Source: Oscillospiraceae bacterium (GTDB lineage Bacteria > Bacillota > Clostridia > Oscillospirales > Acutalibacteraceae). Taken from it: a stretch of DNA of 59,517 bases. A program made the position numbers and the translations under genes. Positions 14,448 to 25,568 of the stretch are shown in pieces; within the stretch, counting starts at the first letter, position 1; each line of letters starts with the position of its first letter. The DNA is taken from contig SVOG01000008.1 of NCBI GenBank assembly GCA_015066525.1, forward strand, positions 1-59,517, written 5' to 3'. The notes beneath the pieces were generated by a model. The model was not told the origin of the DNA and did no database searches. It saw only the letters and a program-made list of their open reading frames with translations.

Positions 14448-15956
14448 CTATCGCGCGAGATACTGATAAAAGAGTGACTTGTCGGAATCGGTACCGACGA
14501 AATTCATCTTACTTCTAAGCGGTATCTCATCAAGCGTTTCCATATAATCATACTCCGTCACGCAGGCGCCGCCCGTTTGGATAAAGCGGGAGACGGAAGA
14601 GGTATACTCGACAAGCGGCGTTACGCTACCGATGACGAATATCAGCATCACGGTCAGCAGTTTCTTCGCGTATTTCTGATAGTCCTTCGCGTTCTTCTCG
14701 GGCGGTTTCGTACAGAATACCGTGCAGAGATATTCCATCAGCATCAGCATCAGCAGAAACAGTGCCGGAATAGACGCACGCATGCAGAAATCAATCGAAT
14801 TGCCGACGCGAATCAGCGGCGCTATCAGTAGTGAAACAAGAATAATGAGTGACTCGAAGCGATGCTTCCTATCCCGCAACGCGAGAAGAAGGAAGCCAAA
14901 TTCAAAGAGTACAAAGAGCACATACATCACTGCCAAAACGGTCGGGCTGGCATCAATCGTATTCACACCCGACAAGCCTCCGCTTTGTGCATCGGTCGAG
15001 GCGATATTATTCAGATAATACAACCCAAAAACCGGAAGGAGCGTTACCAGTGCAAGGAGATTCTGCGGGGTAAATAAATCCCTCAAAAAGGCGCCGATTT
15101 TCTTCTCTTTTGCTGCATGCACAAAACTGCGCAGCGCAAAAATAAGCATATAAGCAGCAAGCCCCACAAGCGGAAGCGGAGAGGTCGGCAGGAGGAGCAG
15201 CCCGATGAGGGCAAAGGATTTTGCATCTTTTTCGTTAAAGGTGATGGCACAGGCAAGCCAAGCGGGAACCGCCTGATTAAACACCCAGCAAAGCTGGGTG
15301 GACATACTGCTATACTGGTAATAAGCAGCCCACCATTCAATGTGCGACAGAAATCTCTGTGGGTTCGCCACAGTACATACTGCATCCATACCGCTAAAGA
15401 GCACAAACACGGAAAATGCAATAAAGGTCGCCTTTTTCCTGCCGCTACCAATCTTAAACAGAACCAGCAGGAACGAGACATAAATCAAAATCACGCTCCA
15501 GAGCAAAATCGCCATTCTCGCGACAAACCATCCGGCCCTGAAACCACCGAGCGCTGTGCCGAGCTTTCCTAAAAGTGCGGGCAGGAGCCAGTAACCGATA
15601 TAATAAACGAGACTCTCGCTGTTGCCGTTCTTATATCGCACGGGCCATGCGTAATTGATTAAGTCGCGGAAGATGACATTACGGTACTCATAGTCACTCT
15701 TTTGGGTAAAGAAACCGCCCTGTCCCGACAAAAACGCCCACATTATGATGAGCAAGCCGAGAAGGAGAAGCGTGCTTTTCTTAATACGGATTTCTCCATC
15801 CTCACATTTCGAGGCGAAAAACATACCAACGCAAAGCAGGAACGCACACGGTATGCCGATATAGAGCTTCAGCCAGGTGACGAAAAATATCAGTGACGGT
15901 ACTGCCAGCAAAACGAGGGCAAGGCTGCGAAATTTTTTATAATGCAGTGTTATCAT
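14448..15956 (-). CDS. Polytopic membrane protein, GT-C glycosyltransferase-like
   Basis: A 502-residue protein with about 11-13 hydrophobic segments. After the second segment a long outside loop carries the acidic pattern SDYEYRNVIFRDLINYAWPV, the place where lipid-linked-sugar (GT-C) transferases keep their catalytic Asp residues. I infer that it is the final transferase of a Gtr-like system, moving the lipid-linked sugar to a wall polymer. It is the last gene of the glycan operon and follows the GT2 gene by two bases. No family name can be assigned with certainty. Confidence 0.6.
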   Translation of the reverse strand: MITLHYKKFRSLALVLLAVPSLIFFVTWLKLYIGIPCAFLLCVGMFFASKCEDGEIRIKKSTLLLLGLLIIMWAFLSGQGGFFTQKSDYEYRNVIFRDLINYAWPVRYKNGNSESLVYYIGYWLLPALLGKLGTALGGFRAGWFVARMAILLWSVILIYVSFLLVLFKIGSGRKKATFIAFSVFVLFSGMDAVCTVANPQRFLSHIEWWAAYYQYSSMSTQLCWVFNQAVPAWLACAITFNEKDAKSFALIGLLLLPTSPLPLVGLAAYMLIFALRSFVHAAKEKKIGAFLRDLFTPQNLLALVTLLPVFGLYYLNNIASTDAQSGGLSGVNTIDASPTVLAVMYVLFVLFEFGFLLLALRDRKHRFESLIILVSLLIAPLIRVGNSIDFCMRASIPALFLLMLMLMEYLCTVFCTKPPEKNAKDYQKYAKKLLTVMLIFVIGSVTPLVEYTSSVSRFIQTGGACVTEYDYMETLDEIPLRSKMNFVGTDSDKSLFYQYLAR

Positions 15957-15958
15957 AA

Positions 15959-16897
15959 TCAGTCCTCAAAATTAATGCGTTCTTCTTCAATAACAAGCGG
16001 TCGGTTCATCACACGGGTATTGATATTCATAATATACTCCCCAAGGAAGCCGAGGAAAAAGAGCTGCACCGAGCCAAGAAAGGTAATGCTGATGACTGTT
16101 GGAACAGTACCGCCGGGAAACCTATCCCACCAGATGAGTTTCATAATCAGATAAACAATACCGATAAGCGCACTGAGCATACCGACGATAAATCCCGCAA
16201 AGGAAGCGATACGCAGTCCGATTTTCGTATACGAAGTAAAGCTCAGCATTGCCGCGTCATAGAGGGTAAAGAAATTATTATGGGTCTTGCCTGCCGCGCG
16301 TTTCGGCTGGGTGTATTCAATATCCTTGCGTTTATAGCCAAGTTCGGCAACGATGCCGCGAATGAAGGGGGTCGGGTCGTCAAGGTCTCGAAGCACCTCA
16401 ATAAACGACCTGTCATACAGTGCAAACCCCGTAAAATGCTCAATCTGTTCAACAGGTGACATCTTCTTAATCAATTTATAGTAACAGGTACGCGCAAAGC
16501 GGACAAAGGGATTCTCCTTGCTCGCGCTCTTAATGCCGCAGACAATCTTATACCCGTTTTCCCACTCGTGCACGAATTGCGGTATCATCTCCACCGGGTC
16601 CTGAAAATCAGCACAAATCGGAATCACGCAGTCGCCGCTCGTCTGGAGCATGGCGTGGTAGGGAGAATTGAACTGTCCGAAATTTTTTGCGTTGAGTATG
16701 GCGCGGACTTTATGATTCTTCGCACAAATGCCGCGTATCAGGGTACGCGTGTTATCCGTTGAGCAGTTGTCAATAATAAGAATCTCATAATCGTACTGCG
16801 AAAGAGAGGACACTAACTCCGCCTCGACCGCCGCAGTGATATTCACGATGTTTTCTTCCTCATTATAACAAGGAATGACAATACTAATCTTCTTCAT
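15959..16897 (-). CDS. Glycosyltransferase family 2, GtrB/dolichol-phosphate-sugar synthase type
   Basis: A 312-residue GT-A enzyme with two C-terminal membrane segments. It starts MKKISIVIPCYNEEENI, has ICADFQDPVEMIP (the DxD-like site) and RAAGKTHNNFFTLYDAAMLS typical of GtrB-type enzymes, and ends in hydrophobic helices (IASFAGFIVGMLSALIGIVY and VQLFFLGFLGEYIM). Such proteins load a nucleotide-activated sugar on undecaprenyl phosphate. GGAG upstream fits ATG 16897; ATGs at 16900 and 16909 are alternatives. It sits next to a GT-C-like protein and in one operon with a GtrA flippase. Confidence 0.88.
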   Translation of the reverse strand: MKKISIVIPCYNEEENIVNITAAVEAELVSSLSQYDYEILIIDNCSTDNTRTLIRGICAKNHKVRAILNAKNFGQFNSPYHAMLQTSGDCVIPICADFQDPVEMIPQFVHEWENGYKIVCGIKSASKENPFVRFARTCYYKLIKKMSPVEQIEHFTGFALYDRSFIEVLRDLDDPTPFIRGIVAELGYKRKDIEYTQPKRAAGKTHNNFFTLYDAAMLSFTSYTKIGLRIASFAGFIVGMLSALIGIVYLIMKLIWWDRFPGGTVPTVISITFLGSVQLFFLGFLGEYIMNINTRVMNRPLVIEEERINFED

Positions 16898-16914
16898 CAT
16901 TTTCTCCATTTAGT

Positions 16915-17421
16915 TTACGGGTTTATAGAAATACAGATGACTTTTGACATAATACATCGCGATAAAATCCTCCGTTTTATCGAGTGCAAAGCTCTGCTCG
17001 GCTGCATCTCACCAAACTCATCATAATACACGCCGTACATAATGTAATACGCAAACAGCATTATCGCAAGGATAACAAAAGGCAGCGCCATATTGGCGAG
17101 ATTATAGTATACAAGCGCCTTTTCCCTGCTTTTACATTTCAGGTTCGAAAACCATCTGTAAAACAGCAAAAATGCAACAGGATAAAGCACTATAAAAAGT
17201 GCATACTGGAGCATTTCATACGGCTCGGGGGCGCATCCCTTTATCGCATCGGGCATTAGAATTCCCTCATACTTTTCGAGACTCACATCGGCAGGTATAA
17301 GCGTAACCAGCATCATTGTAATAACACTAACCGCAAACGACATCAATCCTGAAAGAAGGGTAACAACCTCACTCTTGAGCGCGCTGTTCAATTTTAATCC
17401 GTTTTGTGAATATTCTTTCAT
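16915..17421 (-). pseudogene. Small membrane protein, probably frameshifted near its end
   Basis: As read, a 168-residue protein with about four membrane segments (LLSGLMSFAVSVITMMLVTL, LQYALFIVLYPVAFLLFY and MALPFVILAIMLFAYYIMYG) and no family I recognise. After DEFGEMQ the frame becomes Arg/Ile/Ser-rich and non-protein-like. In another frame the DNA encodes QSFALDKTEDFIAMYYVK plus ten more sensible residues, ending at a TAA (16912-16910) that abuts the first possible ATG of the GT2 gene. This points to a one-base loss or a sequencing error around 16985-17010. It overlaps the epimerase gene by four bases. A role in the glycan system is inferred only from position. Confidence 0.6.
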
Positions 17422-24657: not shown

Positions 24658-24658
24658 A

Positions 24659-25441
24659 TCAGTTCTCCCAGGTTTTCCAGGGGGCGTTGCCGCTGTCCCA
24701 GAGTTTTTCAAGGATGTCCATCTCGCGTTTATTATCCATACACTGCCAGAAGCCTTTGTAGATATAGCTCATCAACTGACCGTCCTCGGCAAGTTTCTCC
24801 ATCGGCTCGCGCTCAAAGACGGTGGCGTCGCCATCAATATAATCAAAGATTTCGGGACCCAGCACCATATAACCCGCATTAATCGGAGCACTGTCGGAGA
24901 TATTCTTCTCGCGGAAGGATTTCACCGCATTGTCGCCGCCGATATTCAGCACACCCTTGCTCTGCTCGAGCATCGTGGCGGTCAGGGTCGCAATCTTGCC
25001 GTGGCTCTCATGGAATTTCACGAGTTCCTCAATATTGACATCACAAACGGCGTCGCCGTAAGTCATCAGAAACGGGTTATGACCGATAAAGGGCTGAATG
25101 CGCTTGATTCTGCCGCCCGTCATCGTGTTCAGTCCCGTATCCACGACGGTGACGCGCCAGGGTTCACAATGCTGATTATGGATAATCATATCATTCTTGC
25201 CCGAAGTGAAATCAAAGGTGATGTCGCTGTTATGCAAAAAATAGTTGGCAAACCATTCCTTAATGATATGCTGCTTATAGCCGGCGCAGATAATAAAATC
25301 ATTATAACCGTAGTGTGCATATTCCTTCATAATATGCCATAAAATCGGTTTACCGCCGATTTCAATCATCGGCTTTGGCTTATATTCACTTTCCTCGCTG
25401 ATACGCGTGCCGAATCCGCCGGCAAGAATCACAACTTTCAT
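24659..25441 (-). CDS. rfbF: Glucose-1-phosphate cytidylyltransferase
   Basis: A 260-residue nucleotidyltransferase making CDP-glucose from CTP and glucose-1-phosphate. It starts MKVVILAGGFGTRISEESE and has KPKPMIEIGGKPILWHIMK, FLMTYGDAVCDVN and INAGYMVLGPEIFDYI. ATG 25441 with GGAG five bases upstream is chosen over a longer frame. It is the first gene of the glycan operon, which runs without clear terminators to 14448. Confidence 0.97.
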   Translation of the reverse strand: MKVVILAGGFGTRISEESEYKPKPMIEIGGKPILWHIMKEYAHYGYNDFIICAGYKQHIIKEWFANYFLHNSDITFDFTSGKNDMIIHNQHCEPWRVTVVDTGLNTMTGGRIKRIQPFIGHNPFLMTYGDAVCDVNIEELVKFHESHGKIATLTATMLEQSKGVLNIGGDNAVKSFREKNISDSAPINAGYMVLGPEIFDYIDGDATVFEREPMEKLAEDGQLMSYIYKGFWQCMDNKREMDILEKLWDSGNAPWKTWEN

Positions 25442-25490
25442 AAAATCTCCTAAAGGACACAATATCCCACTTTATTTTAATTTATATATT

Positions 25491-25519
25491 ATTAAATCAC
25501 AAAAATCATACGCTGTCAA
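25491..25519 (-). promoter_or_regulatory. Promoter of the rfbF glycan operon
   Basis: On the minus strand, TTGACA (25519-25514) and TTTAAT (25496-25491) are separated by 17 bases, about 50 bases upstream of rfbF. Confidence 0.65.
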
Positions 25520-25568
25520 TCGCCCGCGAGCGGCATTTTTCGACAATTAGTAAAAATACGGCGATAAT

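Follow-up and report, generated by a model that had tools for sequence, protein, structure and literature searches.

A predicted three-component glycosylation operon with its own branched-sugar pathway and an exchanged central cassette in an Oscillospiraceae bacterium

We analyzed a 59,517-nucleotide stretch of DNA from an Oscillospiraceae bacterium (contig SVOG01000008.1; hereafter, the window), which is the entire contig 66 of a draft genome of 1.64 Mb and 73.9% completeness, and we focus here on a ten-gene operon on its minus strand (25441-14448). With a probability of about 0.7, the operon encodes a three-component glycosylation system with its own branched-sugar factory and a swappable middle. 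All ten reading frames are open and follow the order rfbF, rfbG, rfbH, gtrA, an aldolase fusion, a thiamine pyrophosphate (TPP) enzyme, a short-chain dehydrogenase/reductase (SDR), a 168-residue membrane protein, a GT2 glycosyltransferase and a 502-residue membrane protein of probable GT-C fold. A preliminary description of this DNA placed nearly all of the genes in overlap or within 15 bases of each other. This holds, as no gap exceeds 14 bases and two gene pairs overlap. Counted from the ATG codons at 25441 (rfbF) and 24657 (rfbG), the gaps are 1 base for rfbF-rfbG, 1 for rfbG-rfbH, 4 for rfbH-gtrA, 14 for aldolase-TPP, 8 for TPP-SDR, 5 for the small membrane protein and GT2, and 2 for GT2 and GT-C, whilst gtrA and the aldolase overlap by 23 bases and the SDR and small protein genes by 4. 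The RfbFGH pathway, YerE-like enzymes and three-component systems are already known; what is new is an Asn/Cys signature in the GT2 group with a link to rfb genes, and the replacement of the middle of the operon between sister species.

The operon recurs with its order conserved in sister species, which rules out an oddity of a single assembly. The preliminary description had made a conserved order in relatives a test of its reading, and the order proved to be conserved. Exchange of the central cassette (16905-21724 relative to sister locus L048, minus strand) is apparent from protein identities, DNA breakpoints and phylogenetic trees. Relative to the sister operons, RfbF is 89-92%, RfbG 77-85% and RfbH 84-88% identical (four loci each), GtrA 81% (one locus), and GT2 87-90% and GT-C 57-68% (seven loci each, some partial). 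The corresponding values are 31-33% for the aldolase (two loci), 38-45% for the TPP enzyme (six loci) and 36-42% for the SDR (seven loci). The window aldolase and TPP enzyme are, respectively, 68% and 77% identical to their counterparts in a rumen Clostridia genome (L004). By blastn, the window and L048 share homologous DNA from 26295 to 21725 and, after a break, again from 16904. Homology with L047, L049 and L051 ends at 22275-22282, the end of rfbH, and resumes at 16892-16897. Within the middle, homology in each sister locus is limited to one or two short matches, 70 to 215 bases long. In the trees, the window RfbH and GT2 group with the genus (100/100 each), and the window TPP enzyme groups with those of L004, L019, L018, L007 and L020 (100/99); the TPP enzymes of the genus lie elsewhere in the tree, in two separate groups.

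The stretches of L047, L048 and L049 also contain PSP1, and in all three the DNA homology extends into a histone-like gene, so that the operon sits at the same place in these loci and in the window. Taken together with the exchanged middles and the two groups of genus TPP enzymes, the comparison indicates a single locus with at least three alternative middles. A TPP gene is found between rfbH and the SDR gene in all four sister operons in which that stretch is visible, even though its sequence has been exchanged. Relatives of the TPP enzyme occur in 13 other genomes of the 394 searched in the window's order, at 38-44% identity. Since none of these is as close as the relatives in other Clostridia, the window TPP type looks imported. 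The operon was not seen across the whole genus. Among 40 stretches beside PSP1 in the genus, several on short contigs and retrieved separately from L047, L048 and L049, one (L100) has rfbF adjoining the histone-like gene and another (L099) reaches the histone-like gene near its contig end. The remaining stretches have no rfbF, rfbG or rfbH, and contain only weak matches to GT2 (L102) and to the TPP enzyme (L121 and L128).

The GT2 protein (15959-16909, minus strand) is a proposed cytidine diphosphate (CDP)-sugar:polyprenyl-phosphate glycosyltransferase, characterized by Asn48, Cys99 and Gly161. Its closest solved structures, GtrB sll0501 and then ArnC, align over nearly the full length, and hydrophobic stretches at residues 237-255 and 272-293 correspond to C-terminal transmembrane helices. 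In GtrB, Asp43 hydrogen-bonds uridine N3; Asp39 of PfDPMS does the same for guanine, and PfDPMS Asp89 sits near the mannosyl C2 hydroxyl (PMC5526996; this and all other papers are cited from the passages available). In an alignment numbered from GtrB Asp94, GT2 Asn48 is equivalent to GtrB Asp43, Cys99 to PfDPMS Asp89, the first Asp of the DXD motif, and Arg204 to GtrB Arg200. Position 161 is Gly in GT2 and PfDPMS, versus Asp157 in GtrB. Thus, GT2 has neither the uridine N3-binding Asp nor the DXD motif with both Asp residues that mark the uridine diphosphate (UDP)-sugar enzymes of the GtrB/ArnC type. All 27 close orthologs share Asn at position 48, as do two distant homologs (L015 and L193), whilst Asp occupies this position in all 20 paralog controls and in three homologs of 45-48% identity without rfb genes. 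At position 99, 26 of the close orthologs have Cys and one has Ala, versus Asp in all 20 controls. Overall, at 35 GT2 positions at least 95% of the close orthologs agree on a residue present in at most 10% of the controls. The N3 of uracil bears a hydrogen and the N3 of cytosine has none; the Asp-to-Asn swap could therefore favor a cytidine donor. The three homologs with Asp48 and no rfb genes (L190, L191 and L192) have Phe at position 99 and possibly form a sister GT2 subfamily with another donor.

A GT2 match at E ≤ 1e-60 is present in 18 genomes besides the window's own, out of the 394 searched in its order, and a looser search over 147 genomes returned a group at 41-67% identity that is set off from paralogs at 25-34%. 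Both rfbF and rfbG lie near GT2 in 11 of the 18 loci, all within the 14 that show at least 54% identity, and rfbH accompanies them in 9 of the 11 and occurs at one further locus. None of the three genes was found near the GT2 paralogs at 20 control loci. Across 38 loci retrieved by GT2 alone, rfb genes are present in 12 of 15 Asn-type loci versus none of 23 Asp-type loci (Fisher p 1.7e-7, uncorrected for ancestry). The Asn-type exceptions are L177, on a 3-kb contig, L178, and L182, which has a TPP and an SDR gene. As Asn48 and the rfb linkage share one ancestry, they are correlated evidence. A YerE-like match at E ≤ 1e-130 was found in 13 genomes besides the window's own, again out of 394, and 10 of these are among the 18 GT2 genomes, where 0.6 would be expected if both searches drew on the same 394 genomes (uncorrected for ancestry). 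In five of the 10 co-occurrence genomes, the TPP match is far from GT2 or on another contig. The YerE-like match is on a different contig from the GT2 gene in G467, G472, G408, G184, G358 and G324, and the branch enzyme and the loading enzyme may be unlinked in these genomes. Judged from the alignments and gene neighborhoods, the signature and its link to rfb genes are features of this GT2 group, which may use CDP-sugars.

The first three genes encode the dideoxysugar core proposed in the preliminary description, and all three exceed curated NCBIfam cut-offs, which establishes their identities at the sequence level. RfbF (24659-25441, minus strand) is a glucose-1-phosphate cytidylyltransferase (TIGR02623, 365 bits, cut-off 300), RfbG (23605-24657, minus strand) a CDP-glucose 4,6-dehydratase (TIGR02622, 416 bits, cut-off 278), and RfbH (22269-23603, minus strand) a CDP-6-deoxy-4-hexulose 3-dehydrase, or E1 (NF011936, 696 bits, cut-off 423). 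The best match to RfbH in the PDB is 3bcx. The E1 signature of one His and four Cys shows in the alignment to 3bcx and 3bb8, and all 30 aligned RfbH rows, 27 of them distinct, retain it. We take these residues to be the His that replaces the lysine of pyridoxal phosphate enzymes and the four ligands of a [2Fe-2S] cluster. The preliminary description noted that the operon lacks the E3 reductase for RfbH, and our search extends this to whole genomes. The flavin adenine dinucleotide (FAD) domain FAD_binding_6 (PF00970), presumably a mark of E3 enzymes, was not found in any of nine genomes, which carry either the operon or, as a minimum, its GT-C gene and of which three reach at least 90% completeness; G019 shows just the GT-C gene, on a contig of 4 kb, and G009 just the genes for SDR, GT2 and GT-C. 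The same search gives matches in 8 of 14 control genomes. Either RfbH is served by another electron donor, such as ferredoxin, or the E3 gene lies in assembly gaps. In Roseburia faecis (L006, 10004-15669), an aldolase gene is followed by an RfbF-like gene, rfbG, a second RfbF-like gene and rfbH; no TPP gene was detected at this locus.

The exchanged genes include candidates for building a branch. The aldolase fusion (20164-21783, minus strand) consists of an N-terminal HMGL-like/4-hydroxy-2-oxovalerate-aldolase-type barrel and a C-terminal domain. Fold comparison, which barely covers the C-terminal domain, places the barrel nearest to 3dxi and DmpG-type aldolases. The protein has the barrel fold together with DxTLRDG and H-x-H-N motifs, and scores 78.2 bits against the 4-hydroxy-2-oxovalerate aldolase model TIGR03217, below the curated cut-off of 286. 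It thus resembles 4-hydroxy-2-oxovalerate aldolases; the barrel fold is also common to isopropylmalate synthases and 3-hydroxy-3-methylglutaryl-CoA lyases. For a phage origin of the aldolase there were two matches only, both weak and partial. Three Selenomonadaceae records (L005, L012 and L014) also contain relatives of the aldolase and TPP genes, and two of them (L012 and L014) have rfb genes in the same stretch.

The TPP enzyme (18353-20149, minus strand) is a YerE-like thiamine diphosphate (ThDP) carboligase by sequence kinship. Its best PDB match is 8rph (373 bits), which is the YerE-like enzyme JanthE (PMC12188165). The alignment spans residues 2-596 and includes the C-terminal extension. 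The runners-up are 5ahk (254 bits) and the best plant acetolactate synthase, 7u25 (240 bits). Acetolactate synthase was rejected as the best description of this protein, because JanthE outscores 5ahk by 119 bits and the plant enzyme by 133 bits. Against the acetolactate synthase model, the protein scores 361 bits, with a cut-off of 538. The entry 5ahk is labeled acetolactate synthase II; we presume that it may be the YerE-like PpYerE itself. In erwiniose formation, ErwE favors 4-hydroxy-2-oxo acids as donors (PMC12247030), which fits the operon since an aldolase of this class would make such acids. The combination of YerE-like enzyme and aldolase favors a branched over a plain sugar, and so strengthens the earlier suggestion of a possibly branched dideoxysugar. 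The next gene (17418-18344, minus strand), previously called an epimerase, encodes an extended SDR (PF01370, 140.7 bits) for which none of the 25 displayed NCBIfam models is above cut-off, and it is more likely to act as a reductase, with ketoreductase of the branch as the proposed role. In two sister operons with another type of aldolase, a HAD_2 phosphatase lies between the TPP and SDR genes (L048, 5615-6280, minus strand; L053, 2882-3544, plus strand), which suggests a phosphorylated aldol intermediate there.

The Gtr-like three-component system of the preliminary description is supported by the kinship of GT2 with GtrB and ArnC, by GtrA and by the probable GT-C protein. GtrA (21761-22264, minus strand), the candidate flippase of the lipid-linked sugar, is identified from its sequence match to PF04138 (78.9 bits, cut-off 26.1). 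For sister operons without gtrA, another GtrA above cut-off is encoded elsewhere in G063 and G033, and G035 has a weak match below cut-off. In L007 (6385-8007) and L020 (6380-8005), a GtrA-like match falls within an open reading frame of about 540 residues, possibly a fusion of GtrA to another domain. The 502-residue protein (14448-15956, minus strand) is probably a membrane glycosyltransferase of GT-C fold, an assignment weaker than that of GtrA, with no sequence match to a solved GT-C structure. Its gene is present in 11 of 148 genomes, the window's own included, all within the genus. In another species of the genus (L054, G041:C8, 5266-6794), a relative of the GT-C gene is broken by three stop codons. 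The small membrane protein (16915-17421, minus strand) was previously listed as a working part of the system. Residues 22-130 align (60 bits) with residues 21-127 of a membrane protein of 473 residues that occupies the equivalent operon position in L053. The remainder diverges, and the sister operons L047, L048, L049 and L051 contain no match to the small protein. From this comparison it is likely to be a remnant of a larger membrane protein. In L053, the 473-residue protein is followed by an open reading frame of 215 residues, both between SDR and GT2 (4461-6580), perhaps representing a second membrane transferase.

We propose the following pathway. In the cytoplasm, RfbF and RfbG would convert glucose-1-phosphate to CDP-4-keto-6-deoxyglucose, from which RfbH would remove the 3-hydroxyl to give CDP-4-keto-3,6-dideoxyglucose. 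The aldolase may join pyruvate, or a similar 2-oxo acid, to a short aldehyde to form a 4-hydroxy-2-oxo acid. The YerE-like enzyme would decarboxylate this acid and add the acyl unit to C4, yielding an erwiniose-like sugar with a long branch, and the SDR would reduce the new ketone of the branch. At the membrane, GT2, with a pocket apparently remodeled from uridine to cytidine (GtrB Asp43 to Asn) and Cys in place of the sugar-contacting Asp of DXD, would shift the sugar from CDP to polyprenyl phosphate. GtrA could then flip the lipid-linked sugar, and the GT-C protein could transfer it to an acceptor outside the cell, which is probably a polymer of the wall or another part of the surface. The middle genes would form an exchangeable cassette between constant ends, which implies that sister species may put different branches on the same intermediate using the same loading machinery. 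We consider it somewhat better than an even chance that a hitherto undescribed polyprenyl-phosphate glycosyltransferase subfamily using CDP-3,6-dideoxyhexoses (Asp to Asn, Asp to Cys) is, within this clade, the fixed outlet of a modular cassette-exchange locus, which would parallel O-antigen serotype switching in Gram-positives and involve C4-branched sugars. The cassette types would be aldolase, ThDP enzyme and reductase; the same with another aldolase and a phosphatase; and ThDP enzyme and reductase alone.

It is quite unlikely that the product is a plain 3,6-dideoxyhexose, similar to paratose or abequose, with the SDR acting as a 4-ketoreductase of RfbS/RfbJ type and the TPP enzyme and aldolase as unrelated metabolic passengers, for example in acetolactate or other oxo-acid metabolism. 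Three GT2-linked rfb loci (L179, L183 and L184) have such an SDR, whilst the stretch retrieved contains no TPP gene, and unbranched sugars may thus also be loaded by this machinery; the TPP enzyme also scores the 361 bits given above against the acetolactate synthase model, though under its cut-off. However, the three genomes concerned (G467, G472 and G408) do have a YerE-like match, located on a different contig. The TPP enzyme also resembles JanthE, extension included, more closely than any PDB acetolactate synthase, and its gene keeps its place between rfbH and SDR in the sister operons despite sequence exchange. That the branched sugar is made as proposed, but GT2, GtrA and GT-C use another donor such as UDP-glucose or UDP-GlcNAc and share only the promoter, we regard as distinctly improbable. 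The GT-A donors named for Gram-positive systems are indeed UDP-sugars (PMC8035078), but the Asn48/Cys99 signature and the association of this GT2 group with rfb genes in many genera argue otherwise, and family searches of the operon recognized no other glycosyltransferase to use a CDP-sugar.

The branched-sugar system would act in a host of Gram-positive type, as the preliminary description had it: LpxC was found in none, and LytR-CpsA-Psr in all, of 20 genomes comprising the window's own and relatives. Candidate acceptors are wall polymers, proteins and glycolipids. A protein, such as flagellin or an S-layer glycoprotein, or a glycolipid in place of a wall polymer seems unlikely. Paratose-like sugars and RfbFGH genes have been predicted for flagellin glycosylation in Clostridium (PMC13317340), but family searches found no flagellin or S-layer gene among the ten operon genes, and Gram-positive systems with a lipid donor and a GT-C enzyme mostly decorate polymers (PMC8035078).

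Branching of CDP-4-keto-3,6-dideoxyglucose at C4 by a ThDP enzyme is known for yersiniose A/B (YerE, Yersinia pseudotuberculosis) and erwiniose (ErwE, Pectobacterium atrosepticum) (PMC12247030). Those pathways serve Gram-negative surface polysaccharides, whereas the operon has a Gram-positive-type host, an aldolase gene and a proposed lipid-linked transfer. C4-branched octoses occur in Gram-negative polysaccharides and in Gram-positive antibiotics (PMC4753412). The nearest envelope precedents are mycobacterial caryophyllose and gastriose (MMAR_2332, MygE), for which YerE-like enzymes use longer 2-oxo acids to make envelope glycolipids outside Gram-negatives, although these belong to actinobacterial lipooligosaccharides (PMC12247030). 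The transfer genes resemble the Gram-positive systems GtlA/GtcA/GtlB, CsbB/GtcA/YfhO and Csd/CflA in combining a GT-A GT2 with membrane helices, a GtrA and a GT-C protein, but the donors named for those are UDP-sugars, whilst here the sugar pathway lies within the operon and the GT2 pocket is changed; the term CDP does not occur in the available text of the review of these systems (PMC8035078). The Citrobacter O1/O2 pentofuranose systems likewise place a rare sugar on polyprenyl phosphate, flip it and add it with a GT-C enzyme, but involve a furanose derived from phosphoribosyl pyrophosphate, a MATE flippase and a GT136 transferase, and CDP is again absent from the available text (PMC11127046). 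In Salmonella serogroups B and D, shared ddh genes are followed by swapped finishing genes, abe versus prt-tyv, with sharp junctions (PMC3715488). The Salmonella sugar is added by WbaV, in an O-antigen cluster that includes Wzx and Wzy, whereas in the present operon the swap affects the branch module and leaves the rfb and GT2/GT-C ends constant. A literature search of partial coverage, over titles, starts of abstracts and passages, returned no three-component or lipid-linked route for CDP-dideoxysugars, no C4-branched dideoxysugar on a Gram-positive envelope, mycobacteria aside, and no gene cluster of aldolase, TPP enzyme and RfbH. If correct, the proposal would add a new donor class to extracytoplasmic glycosylation, provide a two-residue signature for finding CDP-sugar lipid transferases in genomes, and place C4-branched sugars of YerE/ErwE type on the cells of Clostridia. 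Gram-positives could then diversify their surface sugars by swapping a cassette of ~5 kb, and aldolase-ThDP pairs could serve as new tools for the synthesis of tertiary alcohols.

The single promoter and single terminator described previously are both supported. The promoter and rfbF leader (25442-25519, minus strand) contain TTGACA at 25519-25514, a 17-base spacer and TTTAAT at 25496-25491, a match of 11 out of 12 that is equaled in 14 of 500 spacer shuffles. An identical box precedes rfbF in all five aligned species, in surroundings that have largely diverged. An automated promoter scan of 12500-27500 gave 30 matches against a chance mean of 23.8 (sd 5.0), which is little excess, and misses the likely rfbF promoter because it requires A at position 2 of the -10 element. 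The intrinsic terminator (14416-14447, minus strand) has a 14-pair stem, and its first base is the base after the last stop codon. A 205-residue protein without a Pfam match (13796-14413, plus strand) is convergent with the operon, its end adjoining the terminator. Past the terminator lie a GH29-type fucosidase and an MFS_2 sugar transporter (10846-13730, minus strand), which are also found beside the L048 sister operon. Divergent from the operon, at 25735-26274 (plus strand), is a gene for a repeated protein rich in Lys and Ala (DUF6465), into which the sister-species DNA homology extends.

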